Source: Microbacterium luteum (GTDB lineage: Bacteria > Actinomycetota > Actinomycetes > Actinomycetales > Microbacteriaceae). Taken from it: a DNA stretch of 64,000 nucleotides. The position numbers and the translations under genes were made by a program. Under the pieces are notes generated by a model. That model searched no databases. It was not told the DNA's origin and saw only the letters and a program-made list of their open reading frames with translations. The stretch covers positions 2,976,001 to 3,040,000 of the forward strand of contig NZ_CP063814.1 in assembly GCF_015277875.1 (NCBI RefSeq), given 5' to 3'. Below, in pieces: positions 44,715-62,945 of the stretch. Within the stretch, counting starts at the first letter, position 1, and every line of letters begins with the position of its first letter.

Positions 44715-47333
44715 ATGAACGTCACTGTCGCGGCACCCCGCATCGAGCACCATCGCGATCCGCTCGGGATCGGCGAGGCAGCTCCGCGCATCTCCTGGCG
44801 CATCAGCGACGCGCCGACCGGATGGACGCAGAACTCCTACCGCCTGCTCATCGAGCGCGAGTCCGGCAGCCGCGCGCACGAGGTCGCGGGCGACGATCAG
44901 GTTCTCGTGCCGTGGCCCGAGTCGCCTCTCGCCTCTCGCGAGCGCGCCGTCGTGCGCGTGCAGATCGCCGGCGCCGACGGCCTCTGGAGCGATCCCTCAC
45001 CGGCCCGCACGGTCGAGGCGGGCCTTCTCGAGCCGACGGACTGGACCGCCCGACCCGTCGGCGCACGTCGGCTCGAGCCGCGCGAGTCCGACGAGCGGCG
45101 TCCGTCGCTGGTGCGCCGCTCGTTCACCGTCGACGGCGAGGTCGTGCGAGCACGCCTCTACGCCTCAGCGCACGGACTCTACGAGGCCGAACTCAACGGC
45201 CGCCGCGTCGGCGACGACACCCTCTCCCCGGGGTGGACCTCCTACGACTCGCGCCTGCGGTATTACACCTACGACGTCACCGACCTTCTCGCACCGGGAG
45301 AGAACGCCATCGGCGCGTGGCTGGGCGACGGCTGGTATCGCGGACGCGTCGGCTGGTACGAGGGCTTCCGCAACGTCTTCGGCGAGGACCTCTCCTTCCT
45401 CGGACAGCTCGAGATCACCTACGCCGACGGCCGTCGCGAGACGATCGCGACGGACAGCACGTGGCGCACCGCCGCCTCGCCGATCCTGCGCTCCGGCATT
45501 TACGACGGCGAAGACTACGACGCGCGGCTCGAGCACGACGGATGGAGCTCCCCCGGCTTCGACGACTCCGCCTGGGAGCAGGCCGCGGTGCGCTGGCGTG
45601 ACCCGGCGACCCTCGTGGCACCCACCGCCCCTCCCGTGCGCTGCACCGAGGAGCGGCGGCCGGTCGAGGTGCTCACCTCGCCGAGCGGCGCCCGCATCCT
45701 CGACTTCGGACAGAACGTCGCGGGCCGCGTGCGCCTGCGCGTTTCCGGGCCGGCCGGCGCGACCGTGCGCCTGCGCACCGCCGAGGTGCTGCAGGACGGC
45801 GAGATCTACACACGTCCGCTGCGCTCGGCGCGCTCGAGCGACCACTACACCCTCGCCGGGCGCAGCGTGGAGGAATGGGAGCCCCGGTTCACCTTCCACG
45901 GCTTCCGGTACGTCGAGGTCGACGGGTGGCCGGGCGACTTCGACGCCGATGTCGCCGCCGGCGCCCTCGTCGCCCGCGTTCTGCACACCGACCTCGAGCG
46001 CACCGGGTGGTTCTCCGCCTCTGACCCCGACGTCCAGAAGCTGCACGACAACGTGGTGTGGGGGATGCGCGGAAACTTCGTCGACATCCCCACCGACTGT
46101 CCGCAGCGCGACGAGCGCGCCGGCTGGACCGGCGACATCCAGGTCTTCGGCCCCACCGCGTCGTTCCTCTACGACGTCTCGGGCATGCTCAGTGGATGGC
46201 TGCGCGACGTCGAAGCCGATCAGCTGCCCGACGGCACGGTGCCCTGGTACGTGCCGGTCATCCCGTCGCACCGCATGTGGACCCCCATCCGGCCGGGTGC
46301 CGCGTGGGGCGATGTGGCGACGATCCTGCCGTGGACCCTCTATCAGCGCTTCGACGACGCCGGCGTCGTGCAGCGGCAGTTCGACAGCGCGCGACGCTGG
46401 GTCGACCTCGTCGAGAAGCTCGCCGGCGAAGACCGGCTGTGGAACGAGGGCTTCCAGCTCGGCGACTGGCTCGATCCCGCCGCGCCGCCGGAGGATCCCG
46501 CGGATGCGCAGACCGATCGCTACCTGGTCGCGACGGCCTACTTCGCCCGATCGGCGCGCATCGCGTCGTGGATGGCGGCGCTCCTCGGCGACGAGACGGC
46601 AACCGCGCACTACGCCCGCCTCGCCGACGAGGTGGATGCGGCCTTCGCCGACGCCTACGTACTGCCCGACGGTCGCATGACCAGCGACGCCCAGACCGCC
46701 TACGCGCTCGCGCTCGCGTTCGACCTCATCCCGGATGCGCCCCGCCGCGAGGCGGCGGGACGACGCCTCGGCGAACTCGTGCGCGCGGCGCAGAACCGCA
46801 TCTCCACCGGCTTCGTCGGCACACCGCTCGTCTCGGACGCCCTCTCCGGAGCGGGTGAGCTGGACACGGCGTACGCGGTGCTGCTGGAGAAGGAGTGCCC
46901 CTCCTGGCTGTACCAGGTCGGCAAGGGAGCCACGACGGTGTGGGAGCGATGGGACTCGATGCTTCCCGACGGCACGGTCAACCCCGGCGCGATGACCTCC
47001 TTCAACCACTACGCGCTGGGAGCGGTGGCCGACTGGCTCCACCGGGTGGTCGCAGGCCTGGCGCCGGACGCCGCGGGGTATCGGCGCATCCGCTTCGCCC
47101 CGCGCCCCGGCGGCGGGCTCACCTCGGCGAGCGCGCGCCACCTCACGCCCTACGGCGAGACGGCTATCGCGTGGCGCATCGACGGCGATCTGCTGCACGC
47201 CGAGATGACGGTTCCGGTCGGGGCGACGGCGGTGATCGACCTGCCCGGCGCCGCGCCGGAGACGGTCGGCCACGGAACGCACCCGCGCACGGTGGCGCTC
47301 GTCGCTCCCGCCACGGTCGCGGCCCCCGCCTGA
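44715..47333 (+). CDS. Alpha-L-rhamnosidase, GH78
   Basis: An 872-residue second rhamnosidase. It has N-terminal beta domains, the carbohydrate-binding segment LYASAHGLYEAELNGRRVGDDTLSPGWTSYDSRLRYYTYDVT, ILDFGQNVAGRVRLRV and the (alpha/alpha)6 barrel. The catalytic stretch TDCPQRDERAGWTGDIQVFGPTASFLYD begins near residue 460, and WERWDSMLPDGTVNPGAMTSFNHYALGAVADWLHR follows. It lacks the extra helical tail of the first copy. There is no signal peptide. The LacI-type operators upstream put it in a different regulon from the 27601 copy, suggesting distinct rhamnosylated substrates. Confidence 0.94.
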   Translation: MNVTVAAPRIEHHRDPLGIGEAAPRISWRISDAPTGWTQNSYRLLIERESGSRAHEVAGDDQVLVPWPESPLASRERAVVRVQIAGADGLWSDPSPARTVEAGLLEPTDWTARPVGARRLEPRESDERRPSLVRRSFTVDGEVVRARLYASAHGLYEAELNGRRVGDDTLSPGWTSYDSRLRYYTYDVTDLLAPGENAIGAWLGDGWYRGRVGWYEGFRNVFGEDLSFLGQLEITYADGRRETIATDSTWRTAASPILRSGIYDGEDYDARLEHDGWSSPGFDDSAWEQAAVRWRDPATLVAPTAPPVRCTEERRPVEVLTSPSGARILDFGQNVAGRVRLRVSGPAGATVRLRTAEVLQDGEIYTRPLRSARSSDHYTLAGRSVEEWEPRFTFHGFRYVEVDGWPGDFDADVAAGALVARVLHTDLERTGWFSASDPDVQKLHDNVVWGMRGNFVDIPTDCPQRDERAGWTGDIQVFGPTASFLYDVSGMLSGWLRDVEADQLPDGTVPWYVPVIPSHRMWTPIRPGAAWGDVATILPWTLYQRFDDAGVVQRQFDSARRWVDLVEKLAGEDRLWNEGFQLGDWLDPAAPPEDPADAQTDRYLVATAYFARSARIASWMAALLGDETATAHYARLADEVDAAFADAYVLPDGRMTSDAQTAYALALAFDLIPDAPRREAAGRRLGELVRAAQNRISTGFVGTPLVSDALSGAGELDTAYAVLLEKECPSWLYQVGKGATTVWERWDSMLPDGTVNPGAMTSFNHYALGAVADWLHRVVAGLAPDAAGYRRIRFAPRPGGGLTSASARHLTPYGETAIAWRIDGDLLHAEMTVPVGATAVIDLPGAAPETVGHGTHPRTVALVAPATVAAPA

Positions 47334-47629: not shown

Positions 47630-50600
47630 ATGCCTCACACCGCTCGGTCCCGCATCCGCTCGATCGTGGCCGGCGCGGTCGCGACCGCCCTCGTCGCCAC
47701 CGGCGCCACCGTCGCGACCGCCGCAGCGCCGCCGGCGCCGGCTCAGGCGGCATACCCCGACACCTTCAACCCGTTCGCGTTGAACGGCGGCTTCACCGTC
47801 TACGCCCGCGAAGACCTCACGATGGGCAACGACGAGACCGAGGGCAGTCTCGCGGCCGGGGGCGTCGCCACCAAGCCGGGCGACGGGCAGTACACGATCA
47901 TCCACGTCGCCGCCGGAACGGCCGACTACACGCTGCCGACCGTCGACGGCGACCCGACGCGGCTGCTCGTCGGCGAGTACAGTCCCGGCAGCGGCGGCAT
48001 CCTCGCGATCACGAGTGCCGGCACGTCGGACCCGTCTCTGCAGGGCGACCTCAAGATGGTGCAGCGCGACGGACCGTTCCAGGCCTTCACGCGCGCCGAC
48101 TGGCTGCGGCTGAACACGAACCCGGCCAACCCCGACCAGACGCCGCTCATCGACGCGACCGCTCAGGTCTACCCCGAGGATGCCGCTCCCCCCGCCTCGG
48201 CAGCGGGCGACGGCAGCATCTACACGGCCGACACGTCTGCCACCGCCGTCGCCGACTACGTGGAGGCGAACCGTCAGGCCGACTACGACCAGGCCGCCGC
48301 GTGTCTCGATGAGATCGCCGATCCCACCCTGGACCTCGGCTATCCGGTCGGCGTGGCCGAAGACGCCGGTTCGCGCAAAGTGCTCGAGCCGCTCAGCGCC
48401 GATCGACCGAACGTCGTCGACTACAGCGAGATCGCCGGTGCGGCGCTGCTGCAGTTCTCCGCCGGTCCGACTCCGGGTGCCGCGAATCCGCTGATCATTC
48501 GCGTTCCCGCCGGCACCACCGACGTCGTCGGCCTGCGCATCGACCCGCAGGGCACCTACTCGCCGTACACCTTCTGGGACCTCTCGGCGCTCACCGGCGA
48601 CGTCTCGGTTACCGCCGCCGAGGGCCGGATCGACGGATCCATCTACGCGCCGAACGCGAACGTCACCGTCGACGCGGCACCGCTGGACGGGCAGGTGATC
48701 GGTCAGAACGTCGTGCTCGAGGGCGGCGAGGTGCACTCGTTCCTCTTCGCCGGCGAGATCGCGTGCGCGGCGGACAGCGGCTCGTTCCGGGTGCAGAAGG
48801 CGCTCGAGGGCATCGCCGAGGACGACCTGCCCGCAGGGACGACGTTCACCGTGTCATGGACCGCCACCGAGCCCGACGGAACCGAGCTCACCGGATCCCT
48901 CGACGTGCCGGCAGACGGGGGCTGGGTCGACCCCGGCGAGCAGTTCCCGATCGGCACCGAGATCGTCTTCGACGAGATCGCCCCGCCGTCGGTCCCCGGC
49001 TATGAATGGGGCTCGCCGACGATCGCGCCCGACAGCATCACCGTCGGCACCGGCACCGCGGACATCGTCGTCACCAACACCGCGACCGCTCTCGTCGGCA
49101 CGTTCGAGGTGACGAAGTCGGTGCAGACCACCGACGGGTCGACCCCGGCGCCGCCGGCCGGCACGGTGCCGGTGACATGGACGGCGTCGTTCGGCGGCGA
49201 GCAGATCGCCGAGGGCACGCTCGAGGTTCCGCTGGACGGAACGCCCGCGCCCGTCGGACAGGACTTCCCCGTCGGCACCGAGATATCGCTGGACGAAGAC
49301 CTGTCCGGCGTCACGCCGCCTCCCGGGTACGACTGGACCGGCGCGAGCTGGGACCCCTCGGCGACGTTCGAGATCGACGACACGTCGACGGTCGCCGTCT
49401 CGCTCGTGAATCTCCTCACCCCCGAATCCGCCGACCGCACGGTCACCCTGGTGAAGTCAGCCAGCGGAGACGCCGCCGACGATCGGTTCGGCTACGAGGT
49501 CAGCTACAACACCGATCCGGCCGGGGAACGCACGACGCGCGACCTGCCCGTGGGCGATCCCGAGACGCTCGACGACCTCGAGACCGACGCCGATGCGATC
49601 GCCCTCGCCGAGCTCGTGCCGACGCTCGACGGGAGTCCGACCGACGCGGACGCGTGGGAGCTGCCGACCTTCACCGTCACGACCGACGACGGCGAACCGC
49701 AGACGTTCACCCCCGAGAACTTCGAGGGCGCCGGTCCGCTCGACGGCGCGATCGTCGAGATCCCGATCGCCGAGAGCGGCGACATCGTCATCGAGATCTC
49801 GAACACCCTGCAGGAAGGCACTTTCGCCCTCAGCAAGGCCTTCGCCGGCATCGACGGCGCGAACCTTCCCGCCACCATCGGCTTCGCCGTCGCGTGGACT
49901 GCACAGACGCCGCTCGGCGATGTCGTCACCGGCACCGTGCGCCTTCCGGCCGACGGCACAGCGGTCTCGCCGCTCGATGACGAGGGGCAGCCGGTCACAT
50001 TCCCGGTCGGGACCGAGGTCACCTTCGTCGAGCAGACACCTCCCGGTGTGGGATGGATCGACTGGGGAGACCCCGTCGTCTCCCCGGAGCCGCTCGTCAT
50101 CGTCGGCGACGACGAGCCCGTCGCGACCGCGACGCTCACCAACTCCGCGACCCTGCGCACGAGCACCTTCCAGGTGGTCAAGCGCTTCGCGGGCATCGAC
50201 CCCGGAGATGTGCTCGCCGGATCCTTCACCGTCGAGTACACGGCGTATCAGCCCTTCGCGGGCATCGCGACGGGCTCGATCGAGGTTCCCGCCGACGGAA
50301 CCCCGGCGGGACCGACCGTCGACGGCGAGCCGGTGCAGTTCCCGGTGGGCACGGCGGTGCGCCTGGCCGAGGTCGAGCCCGACGCCTCGGCGCTACCGCC
50401 GAACTACGCGTGGGCCGAGGCGACCTGGAACCCCTCCGCCTTCCTGCTTGTGCGACCAGGCGTCGTGGCGGAGCGGGAGCTGGTGAACTCCGTGTCCGAG
50501 CTCGCCCGCTTCTCGGTGGAGAAGGCGGTCAGCGGTGACGCCGCGGACCTCGTGCCGGCCGACACCACGTTCCCGGTCGAGTGGTGGCTCGGCCTGCAGT

Positions 50601-51292
50601 CGCAGGATCCGTTGAACGCCGGCATCGGTGCGCCGGCGGTGTCGCCGTATCTGCCGGTCGGTTCGACGGTGGAGCTGCGCGAAGGGGATCTCCCTGAGAT
50701 CGACGGTGTCGAGTGGGGCGCCGTGTCCTGGACCGCCGCGGGCGAGCCGGTGCCGACGACCCCGGGCGGACTCGTGGCCTTACGCGTGGACGGCGATCCG
50801 GAACCGCTCGCCCTGGTCATGACGAACACCGCGTCGACCGAGCCGACCGGAGGGTTCACGGTGACGAAGACGCTCACCGGCGGAGCCGCATCCGAGGTGC
50901 CTACCGACACCGCCTTCACGATCGAGTACATCGTCGACGACGGCGAGGCGCAGACGTCGCAGGTGGCGGCGGGCGAGACGGTCGAGGTGGTGGATGTGCC
51001 CGCCGGCGCGACCGTGCGGCTGCGCGAGCTCGCACCGCCGTCCGTCGAGGGCGTGGCTTGGGGTGCAGCGACGTGGAGCATCGACGGCGAGGAGCTGACC
51101 CCGGACGCGGACGGCTGGGTGACGACGACGGTGGATGCCGGCGCGACACTCGCCTTCTCGCTCGTCAACACGGCCGCTCCGGGCGCGCTTCCGGTGACCG
51201 GCGGCTCGGGGGTGATCCCCCTCCTTCCGGTGCTGGCGGTGATCGCCGTGGCGATCGGCGCGGGGCTCGTCGTGCGGCGGCGGATGGCGTGA
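47630..51292 (+). CDS. LPXTG-anchored surface protein: choice-of-anchor-A domain plus seven beta-sandwich repeats
   Basis: A 1220-residue secreted wall protein. A signal peptide (RSRIRSIVAGAVATALVATGATVATAAAPPAPAQA) precedes a choice-of-anchor-A-type domain (about 42-390: FNPFALNGGFTVYAREDLTMGNDETEGSLAAGG, and IDGSIYAPNANVTVDAAPLDGQVIGQNV near its end). Then follow seven DUF5979-like repeats opening with a pattern such as GSFRVQKALEGI, GTFEVTKSV, RTVTLVKSASG, GTFALSKAFAGI, STFQVVKRFAGI, ARFSVEKAVSG and GGFTVTKTLTGG. The end is LPVTG, a hydrophobic helix and RRRMA, a sortase sorting signal. It is probably an adhesin or wall-structure protein. The repeats may form isopeptide-stabilised folds; this is inference. 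Confidence 0.9.
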   Translation: MPHTARSRIRSIVAGAVATALVATGATVATAAAPPAPAQAAYPDTFNPFALNGGFTVYAREDLTMGNDETEGSLAAGGVATKPGDGQYTIIHVAAGTADYTLPTVDGDPTRLLVGEYSPGSGGILAITSAGTSDPSLQGDLKMVQRDGPFQAFTRADWLRLNTNPANPDQTPLIDATAQVYPEDAAPPASAAGDGSIYTADTSATAVADYVEANRQADYDQAAACLDEIADPTLDLGYPVGVAEDAGSRKVLEPLSADRPNVVDYSEIAGAALLQFSAGPTPGAANPLIIRVPAGTTDVVGLRIDPQGTYSPYTFWDLSALTGDVSVTAAEGRIDGSIYAPNANVTVDAAPLDGQVIGQNVVLEGGEVHSFLFAGEIACAADSGSFRVQKALEGIAEDDLPAGTTFTVSWTATEPDGTELTGSLDVPADGGWVDPGEQFPIGTEIVFDEIAPPSVPGYEWGSPTIAPDSITVGTGTADIVVTNTATALVGTFEVTKSVQTTDGSTPAPPAGTVPVTWTASFGGEQIAEGTLEVPLDGTPAPVGQDFPVGTEISLDEDLSGVTPPPGYDWTGASWDPSATFEIDDTSTVAVSLVNLLTPESADRTVTLVKSASGDAADDRFGYEVSYNTDPAGERTTRDLPVGDPETLDDLETDADAIALAELVPTLDGSPTDADAWELPTFTVTTDDGEPQTFTPENFEGAGPLDGAIVEIPIAESGDIVIEISNTLQEGTFALSKAFAGIDGANLPATIGFAVAWTAQTPLGDVVTGTVRLPADGTAVSPLDDEGQPVTFPVGTEVTFVEQTPPGVGWIDWGDPVVSPEPLVIVGDDEPVATATLTNSATLRTSTFQVVKRFAGIDPGDVLAGSFTVEYTAYQPFAGIATGSIEVPADGTPAGPTVDGEPVQFPVGTAVRLAEVEPDASALPPNYAWAEATWNPSAFLLVRPGVVAERELVNSVSELARFSVEKAVSGDAADLVPADTTFPVEWWLGLQSQDPLNAGIGAPAVSPYLPVGSTVELREGDLPEIDGVEWGAVSWTAAGEPVPTTPGGLVALRVDGDPEPLALVMTNTASTEPTGGFTVTKTLTGGAASEVPTDTAFTIEYIVDDGEAQTSQVAAGETVEVVDVPAGATVRLRELAPPSVEGVAWGAATWSIDGEELTPDADGWVTTTVDAGATLAFSLVNTAAPGALPVTGGSGVIPLLPVLAVIAVAIGAGLVVRRRMA

Positions 51293-51310
51293 GCGGTCGC
51301 CGGGCGATGT

Positions 51311-51324
51311 CGGAGGTATGTTCG
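51311..51324. promoter_or_regulatory. Degenerate LexA-box-like sequence at the 13E12 gene start
   Basis: CGGAGGTATGTTCG resembles the actinobacterial SOS box CGAACNNNNGTTCG in its right half only. 13E12-type genes are often LexA-controlled, but the left half here is poor and overlaps a GGAGG that could be a ribosome site. Confidence 0.25.
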
Positions 51325-52832
51325 ATAATGGAGGCATGCTCGAAGCGCTCGACACCCTGACCGATCTGAAGGATCGGCTCAGCGCGCTCGTGCCCGGCGC
51401 CTCCGACGAGTTGGTCGCCGGTGCCGCCACCGACGGCGAACTTCTCGGCGTGCTGCAGGTGCTCGGCGACGTGTCCCGCCAGGTCGATGCGCTGATCGTG
51501 GCCTCCACCGTTCAGGCTCAGTCGGCCTCGACCGGCGGTCACGACGAGAAGCTGACCACCCGGCTCGGCTGCGCGAACGTGGGCGACCTGCTGCGCCGCA
51601 CGACCCGGTGCGACAAGAAGCAGGCGGGCGTGTGGACCGCGGCGGCTGCGGCGTTCCCGCACGAGGTGTCCCTGACCTCGGGCGAGCCCCTGCCCGGTGC
51701 GTTCCCCGCCATGCGGGCGGCGATGCGCGACGGCGCCGTGTCGGCCGCCGGAGTCGTGGCCGCCACGGCGCGCCTGCGCGCGGCGTCGGCTCGTATCGAC
51801 CCGGCGGGAATGCACCTGGCAGATCGCGTTCTCGCCGCGGCCGCGCGCGGCATCCGTTCCGACGACCTCGACGAGCACGGCGAGCCCGTGACCGATGCGC
51901 CCGCGGAGCATCCTCCGATGGACGCGTGGGAACTGCGCACGCTCGCCGATGCCCTCGTCGACCGCCTCGATCAAGACGGTGCCGCGCCCTTCGAGGAGCG
52001 CGCGCTCCGCGACCGTGGGCTGTGGGTCGGTGTACGCGGGCGCGACGGTCTTATTCCGGTGCGCGGCGAGCTCCTGCCCGAGGTGGCCGGGCAGTTGCAG
52101 ATACTCATCGACGCCGTGTTGAATCCGCACGGTCCGGAGCGCGCGCCGGGACCGCGCTTCACCGACGACGCGGCGGAACGATCCGCCGAAGAGCCGGCCG
52201 TACACGACGACCGCACGGTGTCGCAGCGCCAGCACGATGCATTCGCCGTTGCGCTCGGCATCGCGGCGCGAGCCGCCGACGCTCCCACGATCGGTGGCGC
52301 GGCACCCACGCTGGTCGTTTCGGTGAGCGCTGAGGATCTAGCCGCGGGTCGCGCCGCCCATATCGACGGCATCGGCGCAGTGCCGGTCGCGGTCGCCCAC
52401 CAGGTGGCGTGCGGCGGAACGGTGCAGCGCGTCGTGCACGACCCGAGGGGCAAGATCATCGACCTCGGCTTCAGCGGCCGCATCTTCAGCGCGGCCCAGC
52501 GGCGGGCGATCATCGCGCGCGACGGATCGTGCATCATTCCCGGATGCCCGGTGCCCGCGCGCTGGTGCGAGGTGCACCACGTCGACGAGCACGCCCGGGG
52601 CGGCCCGACCCACGTCGACAACGGCGTGCCGCTGTGTTTCTTCCACCACCGCACGCTGGAGCGATCGGGGTGGGAGATCGTCATGCGAGACGGTGTGCCG
52701 CACGTGCGCGGTCCCGCCTGGTGGGATCCGCAGCGACGTTTCCGACCGGCATCGAAAGCCCCAGGCCACGCGGCTCCGAGTCGCTCACCCCGTCGCGGCA
52801 GTCCCGCCCGCGCGCGAGCCGACACCGGATAG
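51318..52832 (+). CDS. HNH endonuclease-domain protein with DUF222 (13E12 family)
   Basis: A 504-residue protein. The N-terminal DUF222 helical region runs to about 300, and the C-terminal HNH domain reads FSAAQRRAIIARDGSCIIPGCPVPARWCEVHHVDEHARGGPTHVDNGVPLCFFHHRTLERSGWEIV, with two Cys plus CxxH-type zinc ligands and the HH catalytic pair. This family is multicopy in actinobacteria and often DNA-damage induced; its natural role is unclear. The start is uncertain: ATG at 51318 and at 51336 are in frame, each with GGAGG too close. Confidence 0.9.
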   Translation: MFDNGGMLEALDTLTDLKDRLSALVPGASDELVAGAATDGELLGVLQVLGDVSRQVDALIVASTVQAQSASTGGHDEKLTTRLGCANVGDLLRRTTRCDKKQAGVWTAAAAAFPHEVSLTSGEPLPGAFPAMRAAMRDGAVSAAGVVAATARLRAASARIDPAGMHLADRVLAAAARGIRSDDLDEHGEPVTDAPAEHPPMDAWELRTLADALVDRLDQDGAAPFEERALRDRGLWVGVRGRDGLIPVRGELLPEVAGQLQILIDAVLNPHGPERAPGPRFTDDAAERSAEEPAVHDDRTVSQRQHDAFAVALGIAARAADAPTIGGAAPTLVVSVSAEDLAAGRAAHIDGIGAVPVAVAHQVACGGTVQRVVHDPRGKIIDLGFSGRIFSAAQRRAIIARDGSCIIPGCPVPARWCEVHHVDEHARGGPTHVDNGVPLCFFHHRTLERSGWEIVMRDGVPHVRGPAWWDPQRRFRPASKAPGHAAPSRSPRRGSPARARADTG

Positions 52833-52867: not shown

Positions 52868-53527
52868 CTAGCTGCGCGTGACGATGTCGCGCAGGCGCTG
52901 GATGCCCGGGCGCAGACTCGTGAGCACCGGAACGTCGACGTGCGCCGCATCCGCAGCCGACGCCATCGAGGCCTGAGCGAGCACGACGACGTCGGCATCG
53001 GCGGCGACGCGGGTGATCGCGTCGGCGACCAGACGGTCGTGCGACGCGCGATCGCCGCCGGACACCGCGGCGAAGGCGCCGTCGATCACCTCGCTGACGA
53101 CCGTCGGCCTCGCTCCCGCGAGGGCGGCGCGCTCACCGATCAGTGCCAGCGTGGGCTCGAGCGTCGTGGGCAACGTGGCCAGCACGGCGATGCGATCCCC
53201 CGTCGCGACCGCCTCGTCGGCCATCGCCTCGTCGATGCGCAGCACGGGGATGCCGACCTCGTCCGCCGTCGTAACGGCCAGCTGCGAGATCGACGAGCAG
53301 GTGAGCATCACCGCATCCGCCCCGGCCGTCTTCGCCGCACGCACCAGCTCGGCGACCCGCGCCGCAACTCCCGCGGCCCGGCTCTCGTCGCGCAGGTCGG
53401 CGACGATACGGTCGTCGAGATAGTTCACGGTGTCCACACCCGGAAGGAACTCGCGTGCGAGTTCGGCGACGGGCGCGATCACCACCGCGCCGGTGTGCAG
53501 AAAGGCGACCCGTGTGGATTCGGACAT
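52868..53527 (-). CDS. Aspartate/glutamate racemase-family protein
   Basis: A 219-residue protein of the Asp/Glu/hydantoin racemase fold. The first catalytic Cys is in DAVMLTCSSISQL, and IPVLRIDEAMADEAV and RIAVLATLPTTLEPTLALI match the family. The position of the second catalytic Cys reads VVVLAQASMAS, so the two-Cys racemase pair is incomplete; it may be a decarboxylase-, isomerase- or lyase-type member instead. It is divergent from the GH127-RLP-kinase operon, with a TGGAT-N4-ATCCA dyad between, so it may belong to sugar-acid metabolism. Confidence 0.82.
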   Translation of the reverse strand: MSESTRVAFLHTGAVVIAPVAELAREFLPGVDTVNYLDDRIVADLRDESRAAGVAARVAELVRAAKTAGADAVMLTCSSISQLAVTTADEVGIPVLRIDEAMADEAVATGDRIAVLATLPTTLEPTLALIGERAALAGARPTVVSEVIDGAFAAVSGGDRASHDRLVADAITRVAADADVVVLAQASMASAADAAHVDVPVLTSLRPGIQRLRDIVTRS

Positions 53528-53560
53528 GTGTCGATCATCCCCTTCGATGGAGTCCACGGC

Positions 53561-53574: not shown

Positions 53575-53641
53575 TGCAGCGTTGCGAGAAGTTGCACACC
53601 CAGGTTAGCCTGTGACCACGTTGATGCGAAAGGACCTGCCA

Positions 53642-55630
53642 ATGTCGGCGACCACTCCCCTGCGCACCCACGCCCCGCTGCATCCGCTCACGGCGGAGAA
53701 CGCGCGCTGGTCGAGCGGCTTCTGGGCCGGCATCGCGCAGCGCACGCACGAGGTGACCGTCCCCTCGATGTGGGACATGCTCCGTGACCCGGCGATCAGC
53801 CCCGGCCTGACGAACTTCCGGATCGCCGCCGGACTCGAAGACGGCGAGCACCAGGGTCCGCCGTTCATGGACGGAGACACCTACAAGTGGTTCGAATCCG
53901 CCGTCGCGCAGCTCGAGCTTCATCCCGATGCCGAGGTCGAACGGCAGCTGGAAGACATCGCGGCCCTCATCGCCTCCGTGCAGCGTGAGGACGGATACCT
54001 CCACACCCCCACGGCGATCTCGGAACGCCACCGGCAGCAGGTCGTCGCCCTCGCCGATCGCTTCAACTTCGAGACCTACAACCTCGGCCACCTCATCACC
54101 GCCGCCGTGCGCCACTACGAGGTCACCGGCAGCGAGACTCTACTGAACGCGGCCAAGAACGCGGCACGATTCCTGCAGAGCCTCGCCACCGACAAGCCCG
54201 TGGAGCTCGCCCGCAGCGCGATCTGCCCGTCGCACTACATGGCCGCGATCGAACTCCACCGCGTCACCGGCGACGAGCAGCACCTGCGCCTGGCCGAGGA
54301 CTTCCTGCGCGTGCGCGACGAGTTCGAGGAGGGCGGCGACGACAATCAGGACCGCATCCCGGTGCACGAGCAGACCGCCGTCGCCGGTCACGCGGTTCGT
54401 GCCAACTATCTCTACGCGGGTCTCGCCGACCTCGTCGCCGAGACCGGCGATGAGCGTCTGACGTCGGTGCTCGAGCGCCTCTGGAACGACGTCGTCGACA
54501 CCAAGCTCTACATCACCGGCGGATGAGGCGCCCTCTACGACGGCGCCTCGCCCGACGGCTACCCCTGGCAGAGCGAGATCAGCCGGGTGCACCAGGCGTA
54601 CGGGCGCCCCTTCCAGCTGCCGAACACGACCGCCCACAACGAATCGTGTGCGCAGATCGGCATGATCTTCTGGTCCGAGCGGATGCTCGCCCTCGAGCCC
54701 GACGCGCGATACGCCGACGTCATCGAGCGCATCGCCTTCAACTCGCTGCTGTCCACCATCGGCCTCGACGGCACGACCTACTTCTACACCAACCCGCTGC
54801 GCCAGGTGCGCGGTCTCCCCTTCCCGCTGCGGCGCGCGGGCGACACCGCCCTCCACCCGGTGCCCGAGCCTCCCGCCTCCGACGCGCGCGGGCGGGCACG
54901 CTACCTCAGCTGCTTCTGCTGCCCGCCGAACATCGCCCGCACACTCTCGCGGCTGCACGAGCGCATCGCCTCGGTGTCACCGGACGGTCTGTTCGTGCAC
55001 CAGTACGGGGGATCCCGCATCGACGTTCCTTTCGAGGAGGGCCGGATGCTGGCGCTCGACGAGCACTCCGACTACCCGTGGGATGGGCGCATCGTCTTCA
55101 CCGTGCGCGAAGCGACCGGCACCGTGCCGCTGCACCTCCGCATTCCGGGATGGTCGTCGGATGCGACGCTCACGGTCAACGGCGAACCGGTCCCGGTGAG
55201 CGCCCCGTCCTCCTACACCCGCATCGAGCGCGCGTGGTCGGCCGGCGACGAGATCGTGCTCGACCTGCCCATGCCGGTGCGGCTCCTGCGCGCGCACCGC
55301 CTCGCCGAGGAGGTGACGAACCAGGTGGCCGTGCAGCGCGGCCCGGTCGTCTACGCGCTGGAGAGCCACGACCTTCCCGAGGGCGTGATGCTCGAGCAGG
55401 CCGCCCTTCGCCGTGGCACGGAGCTCTCACCGGTCCAGGCCGAGATCGCCGGGCACCGCGTCATCGCACTCGATACCGAGATCGCCGTGCTCCCCCGCCC
55501 CGACGACACCCTCTACGCCGACCTCGACGACGCCACCGTGCGAACGGCGGGCGCGCGCCTCATCCCGTACTACGCGTGGAGCAACCGCGGGCCGGGCGAG
55601 ATGTCGGTATGGCTGCCGGTGGTGTGGTGA
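53642..55630 (+). pseudogene. GH127-type hydrolase (beta-L-arabinofuranosidase family) with an in-frame TGA
   Basis: One continuous frame of 662 codons interrupted by a single TGA at 54524-54526 (codon 295). Upstream: a helical barrel start (LTAENARWSSGFWAGIAQRT, FMDGDTYKWFESAVAQLE, EDGYLHT, FETYNLGHLITAAVRHYEVTG, HEQTAVAGHAVRANYLYAGLADLV). Downstream: GALYDGASPDGYPWQSEISRVHQAYGRPFQLPNTTAHNESCAQIGMIFWSERML, then CFCCPPNIARTL and a beta domain. The Zn/catalytic residues of GH127 (Glu and Cys in HNESC, Cys pair in CCPPN) are all present after the TGA. As I recall, relatives read TGGCGALYDG, so the TGA falls at or near a conserved Cys. It is a nonsense mutation, a sequence error, or conceivably a recoded selenocysteine. 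ATG 53642 follows AAAGGA. Confidence 0.85.
54525..54549 (+). other. Perfect 8-bp hairpin starting within the in-frame TGA
   Basis: GAGGCGCC (54525-54532) pairs perfectly with GGCGCCTC (54542-54549) around a 9-nt loop, CTCTACGAC. It begins inside the TGA codon. It arises from repeated Gly-Ala codons (GALYDGAS), so chance is plausible. It is recorded because bacterial SECIS hairpins lie immediately downstream of the Sec codon. Confidence 0.4.
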
Positions 55631-56891
55631 GCACCATGACCGCGCCGCACGTCATCGCGACCTACATCATCGAGACCTCCCTGCCGCTGGAGCATGCCGC
55701 CGAGGTGCTCGCGGGCGAGCAGTCGACCGGCACCTTCGTGCGGGTGGAGCGCGAGTCCGACGATCTGCGCGCGCGGTTCGCGGCCCAGGTCGAATCGCTC
55801 GAGGAGATCCCGCTGACCGGCGCATCACCGCTGCCCGGGTCGGTGGGAGACCCGGCCACGCGGCGACGCGCTCGGCTGCGCATCCGCTTCCCCCTGGAGA
55901 ACTTCGGGCCCTCGCTGCCGAACCTGCTGGCCGCCGTCGCGGGGAACCTGTTCGAGATCAAGCAGCTGTCGGCGATCAAGCTCGTCGACCTCGACCTGCC
56001 TCCGGCGTTCGCCGAGCGCTACGCCGGCCGCAGTTCGGCGTCGCCGGCACCCGACGACTGATGTCCCGCCCCGACGGCGCCATGATCGGCACGATCGTCA
56101 AGCCCAGCATCGGGCTCTCCCCGGCCGACCTCGCCGACCTCGTGGGCGATCTCGCCGCGGCCGGCGTCGACTTCATCAAGGATGACGAGCTGCAGGGCAA
56201 CGGCCCCCAGGCCCCGCTGCGGGAGCGGGTCGCGGCGGTGATGCCGGTGCTCGAACGCCACGCCGATCGCACCGGCGTCAAGCCGATGTACGCGTTCAAC
56301 ATCACCGACGACATCGACCGGCTCGAAGCCAACCACGATCTCGTGCTCGCCGCCGGCGGCACCTGCATCATGGTGTGCGTGAACCTCGTCGGTCTGCCCG
56401 GCCTCGAATACATCCGCCGCCGCTCGCAGCTGCCCATCCACGGGCACCGCGCCATGTTCGGGTCGATCAGCCGATCCGAACAGCTGGGCATCGGCTTCCG
56501 CGCGTGGCAGAAGATCGCACGCCTCTCGGGCGCGGACCACCTGCACACCAACGGCATCTCCAACAAGTTCTACGAGACCGACGCGCAGGTGCTCGATGCG
56601 ATCGCCGCCGTCCGGGAGCCCCTCCTCGGCCTCGAATCCACCGTGCCCGTGCTCTCCTCGGGGCAGTGGGGCGGCCTCGCGCACGCCACCTATGCCGAGA
56701 CGGGGACCACCGATCTGCTCGTGCTCGCCGGCGGCGGCATCCACGGGCACCCCGACGGTGCGCGCGCCGGCGTGGCGAGCATGCGCGAGGCGTGGGCGTC
56801 GGCGGCAGCGGGCGAGAGCGTCGAGACGGCCCTCGAGCGCTCCGCCGCCCTGCGCCGCGCGACGGAGGCGTTCGGGGCCGCTCGTGTCTGA
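55627..56891 (+). pseudogene. oiaX: RuBisCO-like protein (OiaX-like), split by a one-base frameshift
   Basis: Two overlapping frames together make one ~420-residue RuBisCO-like protein. The N-terminal frame (GTG 55627 or ATG 55636 to TGA 56061) gives VIATYIIETSLPLEHAAEVLAGEQSTGTFVRVERE...NLFEIKQLSAIKLVDLDLPPAFAERYAG, then a nonsense tail. The next frame continues the homologous PQFGVAGTRRL and then MSRPDGAMIGTIVKPSIGLS. Inserting one C near 56028 (GGCCG to GGCCCG) would join them. Active-site residues persist: Lys in GTIVKPS, the KDDE metal cluster in VDFIKDDELQ, IHGHRA, SNKFYE and LAGGGIHGHPDG. OiaX decarboxylates 3-oxo-isoapionate 4-phosphate to L-erythrulose 1-phosphate; the kinase next door fits. 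The alternative start ATG 56061 (TGATG) could yield a separate barrel domain. Confidence 0.85.
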
Positions 56892-58176
56892 GGCCGCCGG
56901 CGCCGCGCCGCGCGCCGGGTTCTACGGCGACGACTTCACCGGCAGCGTCGACGCCCTCCTCCAGTTCGCGCGCGCCGGCTGGAGCGGACGGCTGTTCGTC
57001 GGCCTTCCCGACGACGACGCGCTGCGTGAGGCGGCCGCGACCGTCGACGTGGTGGGCATCGCCGGAATCGCCCGGTCTCTGCCGCGCGAGGCGCTCGACG
57101 CCGAAGTGCGCCCGGCGCTGACGGCCCTTGCGGCGCTGCATCCGCCCCTCGTGCAGTACAAGGCCTGCTCGACCGCCGACTCCTCCCCCGACGTCGGAAG
57201 CATCGGACGCGTGATCGAGATCGCCCGCGACGTCGTCGGCGACGGCCCCGTCCCGCTGCTGTTCGCCCAGCCGGACTTCGGACGCTACACCGTCTTCGGG
57301 CACCACTTCGCAGCCGAAGACGGCGTCGTGCACCGCCTCGACCGGCAGCCGACGATGTCGACGCACCCGTCGACGCCCATGACCGAATCCGATCTCGCCC
57401 GCCACCTGTCGCGACAGACGACCCTCCCGATCGACGGGATCCCGTTCACCCGCTACACCTCGTCGGCGGCGGTGATGGCCGCCCTCGCGGCCTCCCCCGC
57501 CGCGGCGACGGTGCTCGACGCCGCCGACGCCGCCCACCTCGCCCTCGTCGGCCGCGCCATCGCGGCGCTCGAGACGCCGGTGTTCGCCGTCGGGTCAGGC
57601 GGGCTGAGTCTCGCCGTCGCCACGGCACGCCCGGGTCGGGAGTCGCCGCCGCCGGCCGCCACCCCGGCACGCGGGCCCGTGCTCGCCGTCTCGGGCAGCC
57701 GGTCGACCCAGACCCGTCGCCAGATGGATGCCGCCGCCGACGCCGGCTGGCTCGTCGAGACCCTGCCGTTGGATGCCGCCGACCGCGACGCCGCGATCGC
57801 GCGCACGATCACCGCGCTCGGCGCCGGACGCAGCGTCGCCTTCCGGTCCGACCACCTCCGCCTCGACGACGCCGACCCGCTGCACGCGCTCGCCCGTGCC
57901 GGCGCCCACATCGTGGCGGCTGTGCTCGACGCGGGCGCCGCGTCTCGGGTGATCGTGTGCGGTGGCGACACCTCCAGTCGCATCACGACGCTGCTGGGCG
58001 TGCGGTCGCTGTCGATCGCGGCGAACCCGGTCGGCAACATCGTGCTGCTGCGCGCCCACGCCGACGACCCCGCCGTCGACGGCGTGGAACTCCTGCTGAA
58101 GGGAGGCCAGGTCGGCGGCGTCGACCTCTTCGACGAGGTGCGCCGGCTGGGCGAGTCCGAGGCCGGCAGTCGATGA
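56884..58176 (+). CDS. oiaK: Four-carbon-acid-sugar-kinase family protein (DUF1537), OiaK-like
   Basis: A 430-residue kinase. The N-terminal substrate domain begins GFYGDDFTGSVDALLQFARAGWSGRLFVGLP, with YKACSTADSSPDVGSIGRVIE and FAQPDFGRYTVFGHHFA; the C-terminal nucleotide domain has VLAVSGSRSTQTRRQMDAA, VIVCGGDTSSRITTLLGVRSLSI and LLKGGQVGG. The pairing of this family with a RuBisCO-like protein is the signature of 3-oxo-isoapionate kinase (OiaK) with OiaX; other members phosphorylate threonate, erythronate or related acids. GTG start overlaps the RLP 3' end by 8 bp; the stop overlaps the next gene by ATGA. Confidence 0.85.
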   Translation: MSEAAGAAPRAGFYGDDFTGSVDALLQFARAGWSGRLFVGLPDDDALREAAATVDVVGIAGIARSLPREALDAEVRPALTALAALHPPLVQYKACSTADSSPDVGSIGRVIEIARDVVGDGPVPLLFAQPDFGRYTVFGHHFAAEDGVVHRLDRQPTMSTHPSTPMTESDLARHLSRQTTLPIDGIPFTRYTSSAAVMAALAASPAAATVLDAADAAHLALVGRAIAALETPVFAVGSGGLSLAVATARPGRESPPPAATPARGPVLAVSGSRSTQTRRQMDAAADAGWLVETLPLDAADRDAAIARTITALGAGRSVAFRSDHLRLDDADPLHALARAGAHIVAAVLDAGAASRVIVCGGDTSSRITTLLGVRSLSIAANPVGNIVLLRAHADDPAVDGVELLLKGGQVGGVDLFDEVRRLGESEAGSR

Positions 58177-60998
58177 CGGCCGCAACCTCCGCCGACACCG
58201 GCCTCTCCCGCCTCGCCGCGGAACTCGACGATCCCGCACGCCTCAGCACGCGAGCCATCGACCGCGTCGCCCAGGCGAGCGACGCATCCCACTATCTGCT
58301 CACCCCGGAAGCGGTGGTGACCGCGGCGGACGCGACCGAGGTCGCTCGGCTGCTGCGAACCGCGTCGACGCTGCGCCGCCCCGTCACCTTCCGATCGGGC
58401 GGCACGAGCCTGTCGGGACAGAGCGCCGGTGACGGACTGCTCGTCGACGTGCGCCGCGGATTCCGCCGCATCGACGTGCTCGACGACGGCCGGCGCGTGC
58501 GCGTGCAGCCGGGCGCCACCGTGCGTCAGGTCAACGCCCGCCTCGCGCGCCACGGATACCGGCTCGGTCCCGACCCCGCCAGCGAGGCCGCCTGCACGAT
58601 CGGCGGGGTCGTCAACAACAACTCCAGCGGCATGGCCTGCGGCACGACCGAGAACACCTACCGCACCCTCGAGTCGATGGTGTTCGTGCTCCCCTCGGGC
58701 ACACGGGTCGATTCGGGCGCACCCGACGCCGACGAGGCGCTGCAGCGCGCCGAACCCGGCCTCGTCGACGGGCTGCTGCGGCTGAGGCGACGAGTCGCCG
58801 AGAACCCCGCGACGGTAGAGCTCATCCGCCGCCAGTTCGCGATGAAGAACACCATCGGCTACGGCGTCAACGCCTTCCTCGACCACGATCGCCCCGCCGA
58901 CCTGCTCGCGCACCTCGTGATCGGCAGCGAGGGCACCCTCGCGTTCGTCGCGGAGGCCACCTTCCGCACGGTGCCGATCCGGCCTCACACCGCCACCGCC
59001 CTCGCCGTCTTCGACGACCTCGACGCCGCGACCCGCGCCCTCCCGGCTCTCGTGGACACCGGCGCCGCCACCGTCGAGTTGATGGATGCGACCTCGCTGC
59101 GCGTCGGTCAGGCTCTCGCCGACGCGCCACCGCAGATCGTCGGGTTCGACGTGCACCGCCACGCCGCCCTGCTCGTGGAGTACCAGGCGTTCGAGGCCGA
59201 CGCCCTCGCCCGCCTCGTCGCAGTCGGCGACCGCGCGCTCGGCGCCGAGCCGCTGCGCGCACCGGCGCCCCTATCGACCGACGCGGCCATCCGTGCCCGC
59301 GCCTGGAAGCTCCGCAAGGGCCTCTACGCGTCGGTCGCCGGCGCTCGCGCAAGCGGCACGACGGCACTCCTCGAAGACGTCGTCGTCCCCGTCCCCACCC
59401 TCGCCGAGACGTGCGCTTCACTGCAGGAGCTGTTCTCCCGCTACGCCTATCGCGACAGCGTGATCTTCGGACACGCGAAGGACGGCAACATCCACTTCAT
59501 GCTCACCGACCGGTTCGAGACCGACGAGCAGCTCGACCGCCTCACCGGGTTCACCGACGACATGGTCGACCTGGTACTGGCCGCTGGCGGCAACCTCAAG
59601 GCCGAACACGGCACCGGACGCGCGATGGCCCCGTACGTGCGACGGCAGTACGGCGACGAGCTCTACGACGTCATGCGCGAGCTCAAGCGCCTGTGCGATC
59701 CCGCCGGCATCCTCAACCCCGGCGTGATCATCGACGACGACCCCGACGCCCACGTGCGCCACATCAAGCTCACGCCGTCGATCGAGGCCGAGGCCGACCG
59801 GTGCGTCGAGTGCGGCTACTGCGAGCCGGTGTGCCCGTCGAAGGACCTCACGCTCACGCCGCGCCAGCGCATCGTCACGCGCCGCGCGATGGAGCGGGCG
59901 AGGGCATCCGGCGATCACGACCTGCGGCGCGAGCTGGAACGCGACTACGCCTACGAGGGCCTGCAGACCTGTGCCGCCGACGGCATGTGCGCGACGGCGT
60001 GCCCCGTGCTCATCGACACCGGCTCCCTCGTCAAGCGCCTTCGCACCGAGAACCGCAGCCGCATTCTCGAGACCGGATGGACCGCCGCCGCGCGCAGCTG
60101 GGGAGCGGTCACGCGCGTGGGCTCCGGTGCGCTGACGCTGGCCGACGCCGCACCCGCCGGTGCGGTGACGGCGGTGACGGATGCCACGCGCGCCGTCGCC
60201 GGCTCCGACACGGTGCCGCGCTACTCGGCCGAGCTTCCCGCGGGCGGCCGCGCGCGGCGGATACTCGGGCGCCACGTCGGAGCGGCCGGCGCCGAGCCGG
60301 TCGCGGTGTACCTGCCGGCGTGCGTCGGCAGCATGTTCGGCGGTGCGGGCGGCGGTGCGGGTGCGAGCGCCGCGTTCACCGCATTGCTCACCCGCGCGGG
60401 GATCGCCGCAACCGTGCCCGACGACATCGAGGCGCTGTGCTGCAGCACGCCATGGACGTCGAAGGGATTCCCGCGCGGGCGCGACGTGATGCAGAGGCGG
60501 GTCGTCGACGCCGTGCGCACCGCCGTTGCGGCCGGACTGCCGATCGTCAGCGACGCGTCCAGCTGCACCGAGGGCTTCGCGCACCTGCTCGCGGGCGCCC
60601 GCCTCGACGCCACGGTGGAGGATGCGGTCGCCTTCGTCGACCGCGAGGTGCTGCCGCGCCTGCCTGCGGCGTCGCACGTCGCGTCACGCCTGGTGCTGCA
60701 TCCGACCTGCTCTTCCACCCAGATGGGACTGAACGACGCACTCGGCCGGATCGCCGAGCGCGTGGCCGACGAGGTCGTCACCCCGGACGCGTGGGGGTGC
60801 TGTGCGTTCGCGGGCGACCGCGGCATGCTGCATCCCGAACTGACCGCATCGGCCACCGCCGCCGAGGCGGCCGAGGTCGCCGCCCTGGCCGGCGACGCCC
60901 ACGCCTCCTGCAACCGCACGTGCGAGCTCGGCATGACCCGCGCCACCGGCGTCGGCTACCGCCACATCCTGGAGCTCCTCGAAGAGGCCACCCGCTGA
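58173..60998 (+). CDS. FAD-linked oxidase fused to 4Fe-4S/CCG domain (D-lactate/2-hydroxyacid dehydrogenase type)
   Basis: A 941-residue flavo-iron-sulfur protein. The FAD_binding_4 domain has FRSGGTSLSGQSAGDGLLVDVRRGFRRID and GGVVNNNSSGMACGTTENTYRTL; the FAD-oxidase C domain ends in HAKDGNIHFML and GGNLKAEHGTGRAMAPYVRRQYG. Near 540 comes a CVECGYCEPVCPS cluster and near 605 CAADGMCATACP, each a 4Fe-4S motif, and then a CCG-type domain (PACVGSMFGG, CCSTPWTSKGF, HPTCSSTQM, WGCCAFAGDRG). Such enzymes oxidise D-lactate, glycolate or other 2-hydroxyacids into the respiratory chain. In this operon a sugar-acid substrate is possible. Confidence 0.88.
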   Translation: MTAATSADTGLSRLAAELDDPARLSTRAIDRVAQASDASHYLLTPEAVVTAADATEVARLLRTASTLRRPVTFRSGGTSLSGQSAGDGLLVDVRRGFRRIDVLDDGRRVRVQPGATVRQVNARLARHGYRLGPDPASEAACTIGGVVNNNSSGMACGTTENTYRTLESMVFVLPSGTRVDSGAPDADEALQRAEPGLVDGLLRLRRRVAENPATVELIRRQFAMKNTIGYGVNAFLDHDRPADLLAHLVIGSEGTLAFVAEATFRTVPIRPHTATALAVFDDLDAATRALPALVDTGAATVELMDATSLRVGQALADAPPQIVGFDVHRHAALLVEYQAFEADALARLVAVGDRALGAEPLRAPAPLSTDAAIRARAWKLRKGLYASVAGARASGTTALLEDVVVPVPTLAETCASLQELFSRYAYRDSVIFGHAKDGNIHFMLTDRFETDEQLDRLTGFTDDMVDLVLAAGGNLKAEHGTGRAMAPYVRRQYGDELYDVMRELKRLCDPAGILNPGVIIDDDPDAHVRHIKLTPSIEAEADRCVECGYCEPVCPSKDLTLTPRQRIVTRRAMERARASGDHDLRRELERDYAYEGLQTCAADGMCATACPVLIDTGSLVKRLRTENRSRILETGWTAAARSWGAVTRVGSGALTLADAAPAGAVTAVTDATRAVAGSDTVPRYSAELPAGGRARRILGRHVGAAGAEPVAVYLPACVGSMFGGAGGGAGASAAFTALLTRAGIAATVPDDIEALCCSTPWTSKGFPRGRDVMQRRVVDAVRTAVAAGLPIVSDASSCTEGFAHLLAGARLDATVEDAVAFVDREVLPRLPAASHVASRLVLHPTCSSTQMGLNDALGRIAERVADEVVTPDAWGCCAFAGDRGMLHPELTASATAAEAAEVAALAGDAHASCNRTCELGMTRATGVGYRHILELLEEATR

Positions 60999-61031
60999 GC
61001 CGCACCCGCTGGCCAGCTACTCCCACCGCGG

Positions 61032-61253
61032 CATGTCCCACTTTCTGTCCTCAAGAGTGGCCATACCAACCGAAAGTGGGACATGATGCCGCCCCGCAGC
61101 ATCCGCCCACCGCGGTATGTCCCACTTTCTGTCCTCAAGAGTGGCCATACCAACCGAAAGTGGGACATGATGCCGCCCCGCAGCATCCGCCCACCGCGGT
61201 ATGTCCCACTTTCTGTCCTCAACAGCCGCCATGGCGTCAATAAGTGGGACATG
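61032..61253. repeat. Tandem array of 84-bp palindromic repeats
   Basis: Three units start at 61032, 61116 and 61200 (84-bp period). Each holds the inverted repeat CATGTCCCACTTTC ... GAAAGTGGGACATG (14 bp perfect in unit 1: 61032-61045 with 61072-61085; unit 2: 61116-61129 with 61156-61169; unit 3 decayed on the right, TAAGTGGGACATG). Loops of units 1 and 2 are identical. They fill most of the 477-bp gap after the oxidoreductase gene, in which no coding sequence is visible. Confidence 0.85.
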
Positions 61254-61312
61254 CCGCGGGAGAGGCATCCATCGCCCGCCTCTCGGCATCCACTTGCCCA
61301 CCTGCCCTCCGC

Positions 61313-61342
61313 CATGTCCCACTTTCTGTCCCTAAGCCTCGA
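61313..61342. repeat. Left arm of a fourth TGTCCCACTTTC palindrome
   Basis: CATGTCCCACTTTC at 61313-61326 has no nearby partner. The matching GAAAGTGGGACATG is at 63026-63039, beyond the IS1380-type element. Inside them, GCCTCGATCCACCGATG (left) and CATCGGTGGATCGAGGC (right) are also inverted repeats. Confidence 0.7.
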
Positions 61343-61399
61343 TCCACCGATGAGCCGTAGTTGCGCCGGGGCGGCATGATCGGTGCGCGGTGACGTGTC

Positions 61400-62945
61400 G
61401 AGGGCAGGGTTGAGTTCCGGGCGTCGCATCCCGGTCGTCCACGTGGTCCTCGGTCGTGCCGCGTTGCGGCGATGGTCAGGTGGTTACCGTTGGCGGTGGT
61501 GCGTGCGTGATCTTGAAGAGTTGTGTGAACGCGTGCTCCCAGGGCCAGGCCTCGGGCAGGTGGAGCGTGATCCGGCGCGCGGAGCGTGCCAGCCGTGCGG
61601 GGACGTTGATCAGGGTGCGGCGGATCGTCGCGGTCGTTGCTCTCGCGAGCCGTCCCACCCGGTCGGCGATGACCCCAGCGGTCCGGGTGAGGTTGAATGC
61701 GATCACGGCGAGCACCAGCCAGGCGCTGTTCGCGGTGAACACCCCGGAGGGCAGGTGCGCGAGCGGCCCCGCTTTGAGGTCGGCGTGGACTTGCTCGATG
61801 ATCGCGTGACCGCGGTGCGTCTTGTCCGCGGCCACCGTGTCCATCACGTCCTTCGCTGTGGTGGTGAAGAACGCGTGATGCCGCCAGACGTCGAACAGCG
61901 TCGGCTGCTGCACCTGTCGCGGGTTCAGGTCGGGGACCCGGCGCACCACCAACCGTCCTGCGACCTGTTCGGCCTTCTTCCTCGATCGGAACGCAGTGAA
62001 CGGGACCTCGGCGACTTCGGCTTTGGAGATCAGCTGCCCGGTGGTCTCGTCACGGATCGAGTCGGTGTACTCGATCATCGTCCACGCGTCATCGGGGATG
62101 GTCGCGATCGCGGCCTTCACTGCGGGGTCCATCCTGACGGTCACCGACACGTCGGCGCCGGCTGTGATCGCGGTGCCGACGGTCGCGTGTCCGTAGAACG
62201 CGGAGTCCGCCCGCAGCAGCGGCCGAGTCCCTGCGGCGACACCGGTGCGGCGCAGGGTCGCCAGAGCATCGCCGACGATCCGTGCGGCCCCCTTCGGGGA
62301 CCCGGTCTTCCCTTGCCGCAGCCGCTGCCCGAGGATTACCGGCGCCGACGAGGTGGTCGATGCCGTGGCGAGGAGGGCGTTCAGGCCGCGGACGCCGGAG
62401 TATCCGAAACCGGCGCCCTGCTTCTGGTATCCGTGGACCTCGATGATCGTGTCGTCAAGATCGACCATCACCCGCTCGCCATCGCCTGCTCGGAGCAGCG
62501 GCGCGTTGACAGCGAGATTCGCGAACACCCGGGAGGCGACGGCGTCGAGCTGGCGGACGTGTCCGAACCGGAACTCCCGCAGGAACGACCCGAGCGTCGA
62601 CGGCGCATACGTCCGGTCGAACAACCGGCCAATTCCGCCATGGCGGAGCAGGTTCATGTCGTCGATCGAGTCCGCCCCGGCGAGCATGCCCGCGACCAGT
62701 GCCATCACCTTCGCACCCGCGTTGGCGCCCTTGTCCGCCGGGACGCTCAACCGCTCACGCGCGAGCTCGTCCAGCCCCGCGGAACGCGCCAGACGGAGCA
62801 TCGGCACCAGCCCCGCGGCCGACACGAGATTCGGATCGTCGAACACCGCGGACACCCCAGCAGGAGCGTGCTTGAATTGCATCTACGAGATGCCTCTCGG
62901 ATCGGGTGAATAGGGGCCTTAGACAAGCTCTATTCTTCCTGATCA
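61400..62945 (-). mobile_element. IS1380-family insertion sequence (ends approximate)
   Basis: The element contains one complete IS1380-type transposase gene and separates the two arms of a TGTCCCACTTTC palindrome, implying insertion into that repeat. I could not identify terminal inverted repeats or a target duplication with confidence, so the boundaries are approximate. Confidence 0.6.
61476..62882 (-). CDS. IS1380-family transposase
   Basis: A 468-residue complete DDE transposase. The N-terminal segment (MLRLARSAGLDELARERLSVPADKGANAGAKVMALVAGMLAGADSIDDMNLLRHGG) is typical of the family. Catalytic motifs are VMVDLDDTIIEVHGYQKQGAGFGYSGVRGLN, PLLRADSAFYGHATVG and the late Glu in HAIIEQVHADLKAGPLAHLPSG. 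No frame damage is seen, so it may be active. Four Tyr-poor, Arg-rich helices close the protein. Confidence 0.93.
   Translation of the reverse strand: MQFKHAPAGVSAVFDDPNLVSAAGLVPMLRLARSAGLDELARERLSVPADKGANAGAKVMALVAGMLAGADSIDDMNLLRHGGIGRLFDRTYAPSTLGSFLREFRFGHVRQLDAVASRVFANLAVNAPLLRAGDGERVMVDLDDTIIEVHGYQKQGAGFGYSGVRGLNALLATASTTSSAPVILGQRLRQGKTGSPKGAARIVGDALATLRRTGVAAGTRPLLRADSAFYGHATVGTAITAGADVSVTVRMDPAVKAAIATIPDDAWTMIEYTDSIRDETTGQLISKAEVAEVPFTAFRSRKKAEQVAGRLVVRRVPDLNPRQVQQPTLFDVWRHHAFFTTTAKDVMDTVAADKTHRGHAIIEQVHADLKAGPLAHLPSGVFTANSAWLVLAVIAFNLTRTAGVIADRVGRLARATTATIRRTLINVPARLARSARRITLHLPEAWPWEHAFTQLFKITHAPPPTVTT

Follow-up and report, generated by a model that had tools for sequence, protein, structure and literature searches.

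A RuBisCO-like protein gene divided between two reading frames in Microbacterium luteum, and its conserved pairing with a GH127 gene

Introduction

Within a stretch of 64,000 nucleotides of the Microbacterium luteum chromosome, referred to here as the window (bases 2976001–3040000 of a single-contig genome of 3,520,443 bases), the gene for a RuBisCO-like protein (RLP) is divided between two reading frames. An initial annotation, made from the sequence alone, offered three options for this locus: a recent lesion, a sequencing error, or an RLP that is naturally made in two pieces. The question is which of these applies, and what the surrounding genes indicate about the role of the protein. The first two options stand after comparison with related loci and protein records; the third is not supported, since the related loci are unsplit and intact alleles exist. 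Among the papers listed by a literature search (10 of 129), none dealt with a split RLP.

Organization of the divided gene

The features of the locus are collected in Table 1. The RLP gene probably starts at ATG 55609 or later, with 55627 or 55636 as alternatives. Counted from ATG 55609, the N-terminal piece has 150 residues, 140 of them native and the last 10 out of frame. The initial annotation was correct in placing the end of the N-terminal frame at 56061 and the return of homology, in the −1 frame, at about 56028, and the one-base frame change that it proposed could be located within a short interval (Table 1).

Table 1. Features of the RLP locus, with positions in the window.
Feature	Position	Strand	Evidence and comments
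Alpha-L-rhamnosidase	44715..47333	+	Homologue in 26/48 related loci
Asp/Glu/hydantoin racemase-superfamily protein	52868..53551	−	PF01177, 2.5e-18; homologue in 47/48 related loci
GH127 (aceric acid hydrolase-like), immediately 5′ of the RLP	53642..55630 or 53612..55630	+	NF049879, 354.9 and 352 bits on two pieces
In-frame TGA in GH127	54524..54526	+	118 relatives: Cys 84, Ala 33, Val 1
RLP N-terminal domain piece	55609..56061	+	RuBisCO_large_N PF02788, 2.2e-13; identical to P0004
RLP frame-change site	56026..56030	+	Frame unbroken here in 104/104 relative loci
RLP barrel (catalytic) part, −1 frame	56028..56891	+	PF00016, 4.5e-64
TGATG overlap (TGA 56059–56061, ATG 56061–56063)	56059..56063	+	Sequence
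OiaK/DUF1537-like kinase, overlaps the RLP stop, uninterrupted	56884..58176	+	PF07005/PF17042; NF042436, 268.5 bits (cut-off 700)
GlcD-like FAD and Fe-S oxidoreductase, uninterrupted	58194..60998	+	PF02913, PF01565, Fer4

Assignment of the gene to the RLPs is borne out by a Pfam search, in which the N-terminal piece matches RuBisCO_large_N and the −1 frame ORF (55413–56891) matches RuBisCO_large. Both RuBisCO domains are thus present in order, one per piece, and they are joined in the intact allele P0128. All of the motifs cited at the outset (PQFGVAGTRRL, IVKPS, FIKDDE, HGHRA, NKFYE, and GGGIHGHP) are found in the −1 frame ORF. FIKDDE carries a K-x-D-E motif, which we take to be the metal/carbamate motif, and all 18 sequences compared agree at its residues K191, D193, and E194.

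On the model of OiaX (NF042437), the N piece covers profile positions 3–126 and the C piece positions 124–412; because the pieces meet in this way, the RLP is disturbed in little but its frame. Similarly, across 24 relatives (the matches among 197 genomes besides this one), the N piece aligns as far as its residue 134, and the next codon opens the C-piece alignment; in three of the relatives (L008, L020, and L025) the latter begins two or three codons earlier. The C piece adjoins the N piece both on the model and in the relatives, and PQFGVAGTRRL belongs to the RLP homology, as had been proposed. The stop and start codons overlap in TGATG as described. Re-initiation at this site would be possible and would give a free barrel of 276 residues; inspection of the sequence revealed no purine-rich ribosome site directly upstream.

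Intact alleles and related loci

The whole gene, with an otherwise identical protein, is found in other records, which favors either a recent break or a slip in sequencing over a natural two-part enzyme. Sixteen full-length proteins (P0124–P0139), from the best 120 of 4927 matches listed, are 99–100% identical to the barrel piece, and the 287 residues of that piece are the same as those in P0124–P0129. P0128 (427 amino acids) consists of the N piece of the window through residue 140 followed by the whole barrel, and is recorded on 99 contigs of up to 319,870 bases. P0127, on 108 contigs, has another start and differs in one N-terminal residue. Judged by sequence, the intact proteins that equal both pieces presumably come from the same species. 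P0004, which reproduces the frameshifted N piece exactly, is recorded on three contigs, this chromosome among them; they could be copies of a single assembly.

Comparison with relatives, which the initial annotation had suggested as a check, finds the frameshift in none of those compared. One uninterrupted frame runs across the position of the break in 104 of 104 related loci, comprising the 24 from the genome search and 80 named loci (kept from 87), with partial overlap in the genomes that they represent. An RLP match is present in 27 of 398 genomes of the family: this genome, 17 others with nearly full-length matches, and nine with weak partial matches of less than 83 bits that were left aside. 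Only this genome, among the 398, has N and C matches that lie apart. It contains one RLP locus, and no second copy was found at E 0.001. Viral contigs gave no match to the query, and a plasmid search returned two records, covering 8% and 3% of it.

Shortened forms of RLPs are also recorded. P0140 is a barrel-only protein of 280 amino acids, made up of Met, three Leu, and 276 unchanged residues starting at window position 56061, and it is listed on 126 contigs, the longest of 370,357 bases. An IS1380 insertion was considered as its source and rejected: the 5′ codons of P0140 (ATG, Leu, Leu, CTG) are not found in the window or the 5 kb around it, and the ends of the IS1380 copy in the window do not read as these codons. 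That copy, an IS1380-family element at 61332–63009, has inverted ends of 24 nt, and its transposase has seven full-length and four fragment matches genome-wide. It is flanked, at 61026–61330 and 63022–63041, by a repeated palindromic unit based on ATGTCCCACTTTCTGT / ACCGAAAGTGGGACAT, and these repeats include a direct one some 84 bases long. N-only RLP fragments are known from various taxa. On contigs longer than 9 kb there are 27 among P0004–P0123, a selection biased by length and score, and 21 of these end by alignment at reference residues 118–157, in or just before the linker. Their ends may mark the linker region as an indel-prone, GC-rich stretch.

Consequences of the split for the protein

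If the barrel were re-initiated at ATG 56061, residues 141–151 of the intact allele would be missing from both products. All 18 sequences compared share six of these residues (P141, G144, G147, T148, R149, and L151). Structure prediction for P0128 places a helix at 144–152, leading toward the first barrel strand at 159–164, and the split removes most of this helix. The P0128 model has a mean pLDDT of 78.9, and confidence in it is moderate since the other four models reach only 53–59. The N domain of RuBisCO supplies residues to the active site of the partner subunit and, by analogy, a barrel on its own should lack activity. From the loss of the linker stretch from both products, together with the lack of a second copy in the search described above, we infer that no active RLP is made in the strain.

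The interrupted GH127 gene

The GH127 gene directly upstream contains an in-frame TGA, which the initial annotation did not mention. Its sole NCBIfam match is to aceric acid hydrolase (NF049879), and an intact protein, P0244, reaches 761 bits on this model, below the cut-off of 950. P0244 is 99% identical to the GH127 of the window and has no interruption; it comes from one contig of 11,039 bases and stands for 42 sequences. Near-identical intact alleles are therefore on record for both the RLP (P0124–P0139) and GH127 (P0244).

Besides the TGA, the two GH127 sequences differ at eight sites, which were compared with 118 relatives (the best 120 listed, minus P0244 and P0245). At sites 202, 214, 391, and 419, P0244 has the commonest residue of the relatives, shared by 117, 111, 89, and 76 of the 118, respectively; at site 391, the residue of the window is found in 15 of them. 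The pattern is reversed at sites 215 and 248, where the residue of the window is that of 118 and 111 of the relatives, respectively, and sites 17 and 378 are uninformative. On sequence comparison, these changes give hints of relaxed constraint.

Selenocysteine was considered at the TGA because cysteine stands at this position in 84 of the 118 relatives. It is unlikely, since the best matches to SelB and tRNA-Sec both fall below their cut-offs. For SelB, the best match scored 190.2 of 242.25 bits over positions 1–262 of 581; all 14 controls gave matches, two of them over the cut-off. For tRNA-Sec, the best match, one of nine below the cut-off, scored 44.2 of 47 bits, and five of 14 controls exceeded the cut-off. 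A stable hairpin lies 3′ of the TGA (z −2.37), and five of 200 shuffled sequences fold equally well.

Lesion or sequencing error

The frequency of such lesions was gauged in a survey that set 864 kb of this genome beside 794 kb from a relative, G232, which has the closest rhamnosidase gene (80%) among 295 genomes of the genus. It contained 193 assessable orthologous genes, 15 of which were flagged. Apart from GH127 and the RLP, four flags were checked by alignment: in one, the stop falls at a natural C-terminus, and three look like antisense or out-of-frame readings. Nine further flags were judged from coordinates alone to be gaps within one frame, incomplete ends, or a stop close to the terminus. 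For one of the three apparent antisense or out-of-frame readings, with two frames at 89–92% identity, an RNA gene was considered and gave no Rfam match. The opposite strand there holds two uninterrupted ORFs, presumably the genes for ribosomal proteins L2 and L23, and the flag is on that account an antisense reading. The reverse survey flagged 14 of 197 genes, one of which may carry a frameshift close to its C-terminus in G232. On these judgments, partly made from coordinates alone, GH127 and the RLP gene are the only two real lesions, with homology on both sides, in the 193 genes. By our own estimate, two lesions placed at random would be neighbors by coincidence in about 1% of cases, and their adjacency therefore favors real decay over error.

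Two of the possible explanations would make the divided gene functional. A naturally two-piece RLP, with N domain and barrel made separately through re-initiation at TGATG and then associating, would fit the overlap of stop and start codons, the continued identity of both domains to intact alleles, and the existence of P0140, with its last 276 residues matching the free barrel. Against these points stand the single frame of all 104 related loci, the intact alleles with the same flanking sequence, and the loss of an invariant segment and most of a helix from both products, and we regard a two-piece enzyme as very improbable. Programmed −1 frameshifting, which would join the two frames, agrees with the direction of the shift; the relatives, with their single frames, need no such shift, and 56015–56063 contains no heptamer of the form X XXY YYZ with A or T as Y. 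It is hardly credible as an explanation.

Sequencing or assembly error is a possible explanation that we hold to be of limited likelihood. The gene of the strain would then be intact, with one base lost in a GC-rich stretch, and the TGA would be either another consensus error or a mutation with no connection to it. The missing base does fall in a short C/G run, the flanking protein is otherwise identical to intact alleles, and the concentration of N-only fragment ends near the linker would suit an indel-prone stretch. An error accounts less readily for the adjacency of the only two lesions judged real in the survey, for a lesion in GH127 that is a substitution and is accompanied by other changes at conserved sites, or for the identical frameshifted N piece on three contigs, possibly copies of one assembly. 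On balance, we consider it probable that the RLP gene was an ordinary, full-length one and recently lost a single base in the sequenced Microbacterium strain, and that the cluster is decaying there, as suggested by the nonsense codon that also breaks the upstream GH127. Both lesions would be real in the DNA of the strain, and they need not share an age or a cause. The absence of decay in the RLP protein sequence beyond the deletion, and the small number of changes in GH127, count against decay. TGATG may allow ribosomes to continue into the kinase gene. Strain-specific pseudogenes in catabolic operons are a general, known kind, and this locus is like them in having a frameshift and a nonsense codon in neighboring genes of a cluster, with intact alleles elsewhere.

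Relation to OiaX and other known RLPs

OiaX (NF042437), a 3-oxo-isoapionate-4-phosphate decarboxylase of the D-apiose pathway, is the best-scoring family for this RLP. The intact allele P0128 reaches 416.1 bits, short of the curated cut-off of 700, and on sequence grounds 'OiaX' is accordingly a loose label for it. The cut-off is also strict: it is passed by no genome of 198 or of 398, nor by a Phyllobacterium RLP (412.6 bits). The scores of the RLP and kinase fall well short of the OiaX and OiaK cut-offs, and since this is equally true of a Phyllobacterium pair, cut-offs alone do not separate groups of RLPs. The likeness to OiaX consists of two RuBisCO domains in order, beside an OiaK-like kinase. 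The locus differs in its split RLP and in its cluster with GH127 and a racemase-family gene, both absent from 32 more distant RLP loci. The best sequence match in the PDB is the RLP structure 3nwr (7.8e-110, residues 16–424 of the intact allele), whose protein, unlike the RLP of the window, is uninterrupted.

A conserved GH127–RLP pairing

The cluster probably serves the use of plant-pectin sugar acids from rhamnogalacturonan-II (RG-II). Its conservation was assessed in the 80 named RLP loci (L027–L106), which extend up to 10 kb on each side, some being ended by the contig, and were divided at 60% RLP identity. In the 48 loci with at least 60% identity, GH127 is always present, and in 47 of them it lies within approximately 75 nt upstream of the RLP as measured from alignment ends; the kinase and the racemase-family gene are each found in 47, the rhamnosidase in 26, and the oxidoreductase in 20. 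In the 32 loci with lower identity, neither GH127 nor the racemase-family gene occurs, and 30 have a kinase homologue. In the window, the interval between the rhamnosidase and racemase genes (47504–52832) contains an ORF of 1262 amino acids that combines an ice-binding-like adhesive domain with DUF5979 repeats, as well as a DUF222 gene; in L027, the rhamnosidase and racemase genes are directly adjacent.

The carboxylate of aceric acid is borne on a hydroxylated branch carbon, as is that of 3-oxo-isoapionate-4-phosphate. By this analogy, it is plausible that RLP chemistry could act on a derivative of aceric acid after oxidation next to the branch carbon. Excerpts of published work describe apiose-pathway RLPs as acting on 3-oxo-isoapionate-4-phosphate (PMC6302742), BT1003 as an aceric acid hydrolase (PMC10850190, PMC5698469), and aceric acid as 3-C-carboxy-5-deoxy-L-xylose (PMC5698469). 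In the proposed pathway, GH127 would free aceric acid, a sugar acid of RG-II side chains, the OiaK-like kinase would phosphorylate an oxidized derivative, and the RLP would remove the branch carboxylate. Among the titles and opening lines of abstracts covered by a literature search, none linked aceric acid to an RLP. We suggest, tentatively and with some doubt, that the intact RLP is not an apiose enzyme and may be the decarboxylase of an undescribed actinobacterial pathway for aceric acid, one that is being lost here.

The split amounts to an ordinary lesion of recent date or an error, and it should not be mistaken for a new RuBisCO form made in two pieces. The neighborhood of the split gene matters more, and the conserved pairing is the better lead. 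The actinobacterial RLP subfamily that is paired with GH127 may serve an undescribed aceric acid pathway, and the pairing, in 48 of 48 loci, offers a testable assignment for RLPs outside the curated OiaX model and for what becomes of a rare sugar acid from plants.
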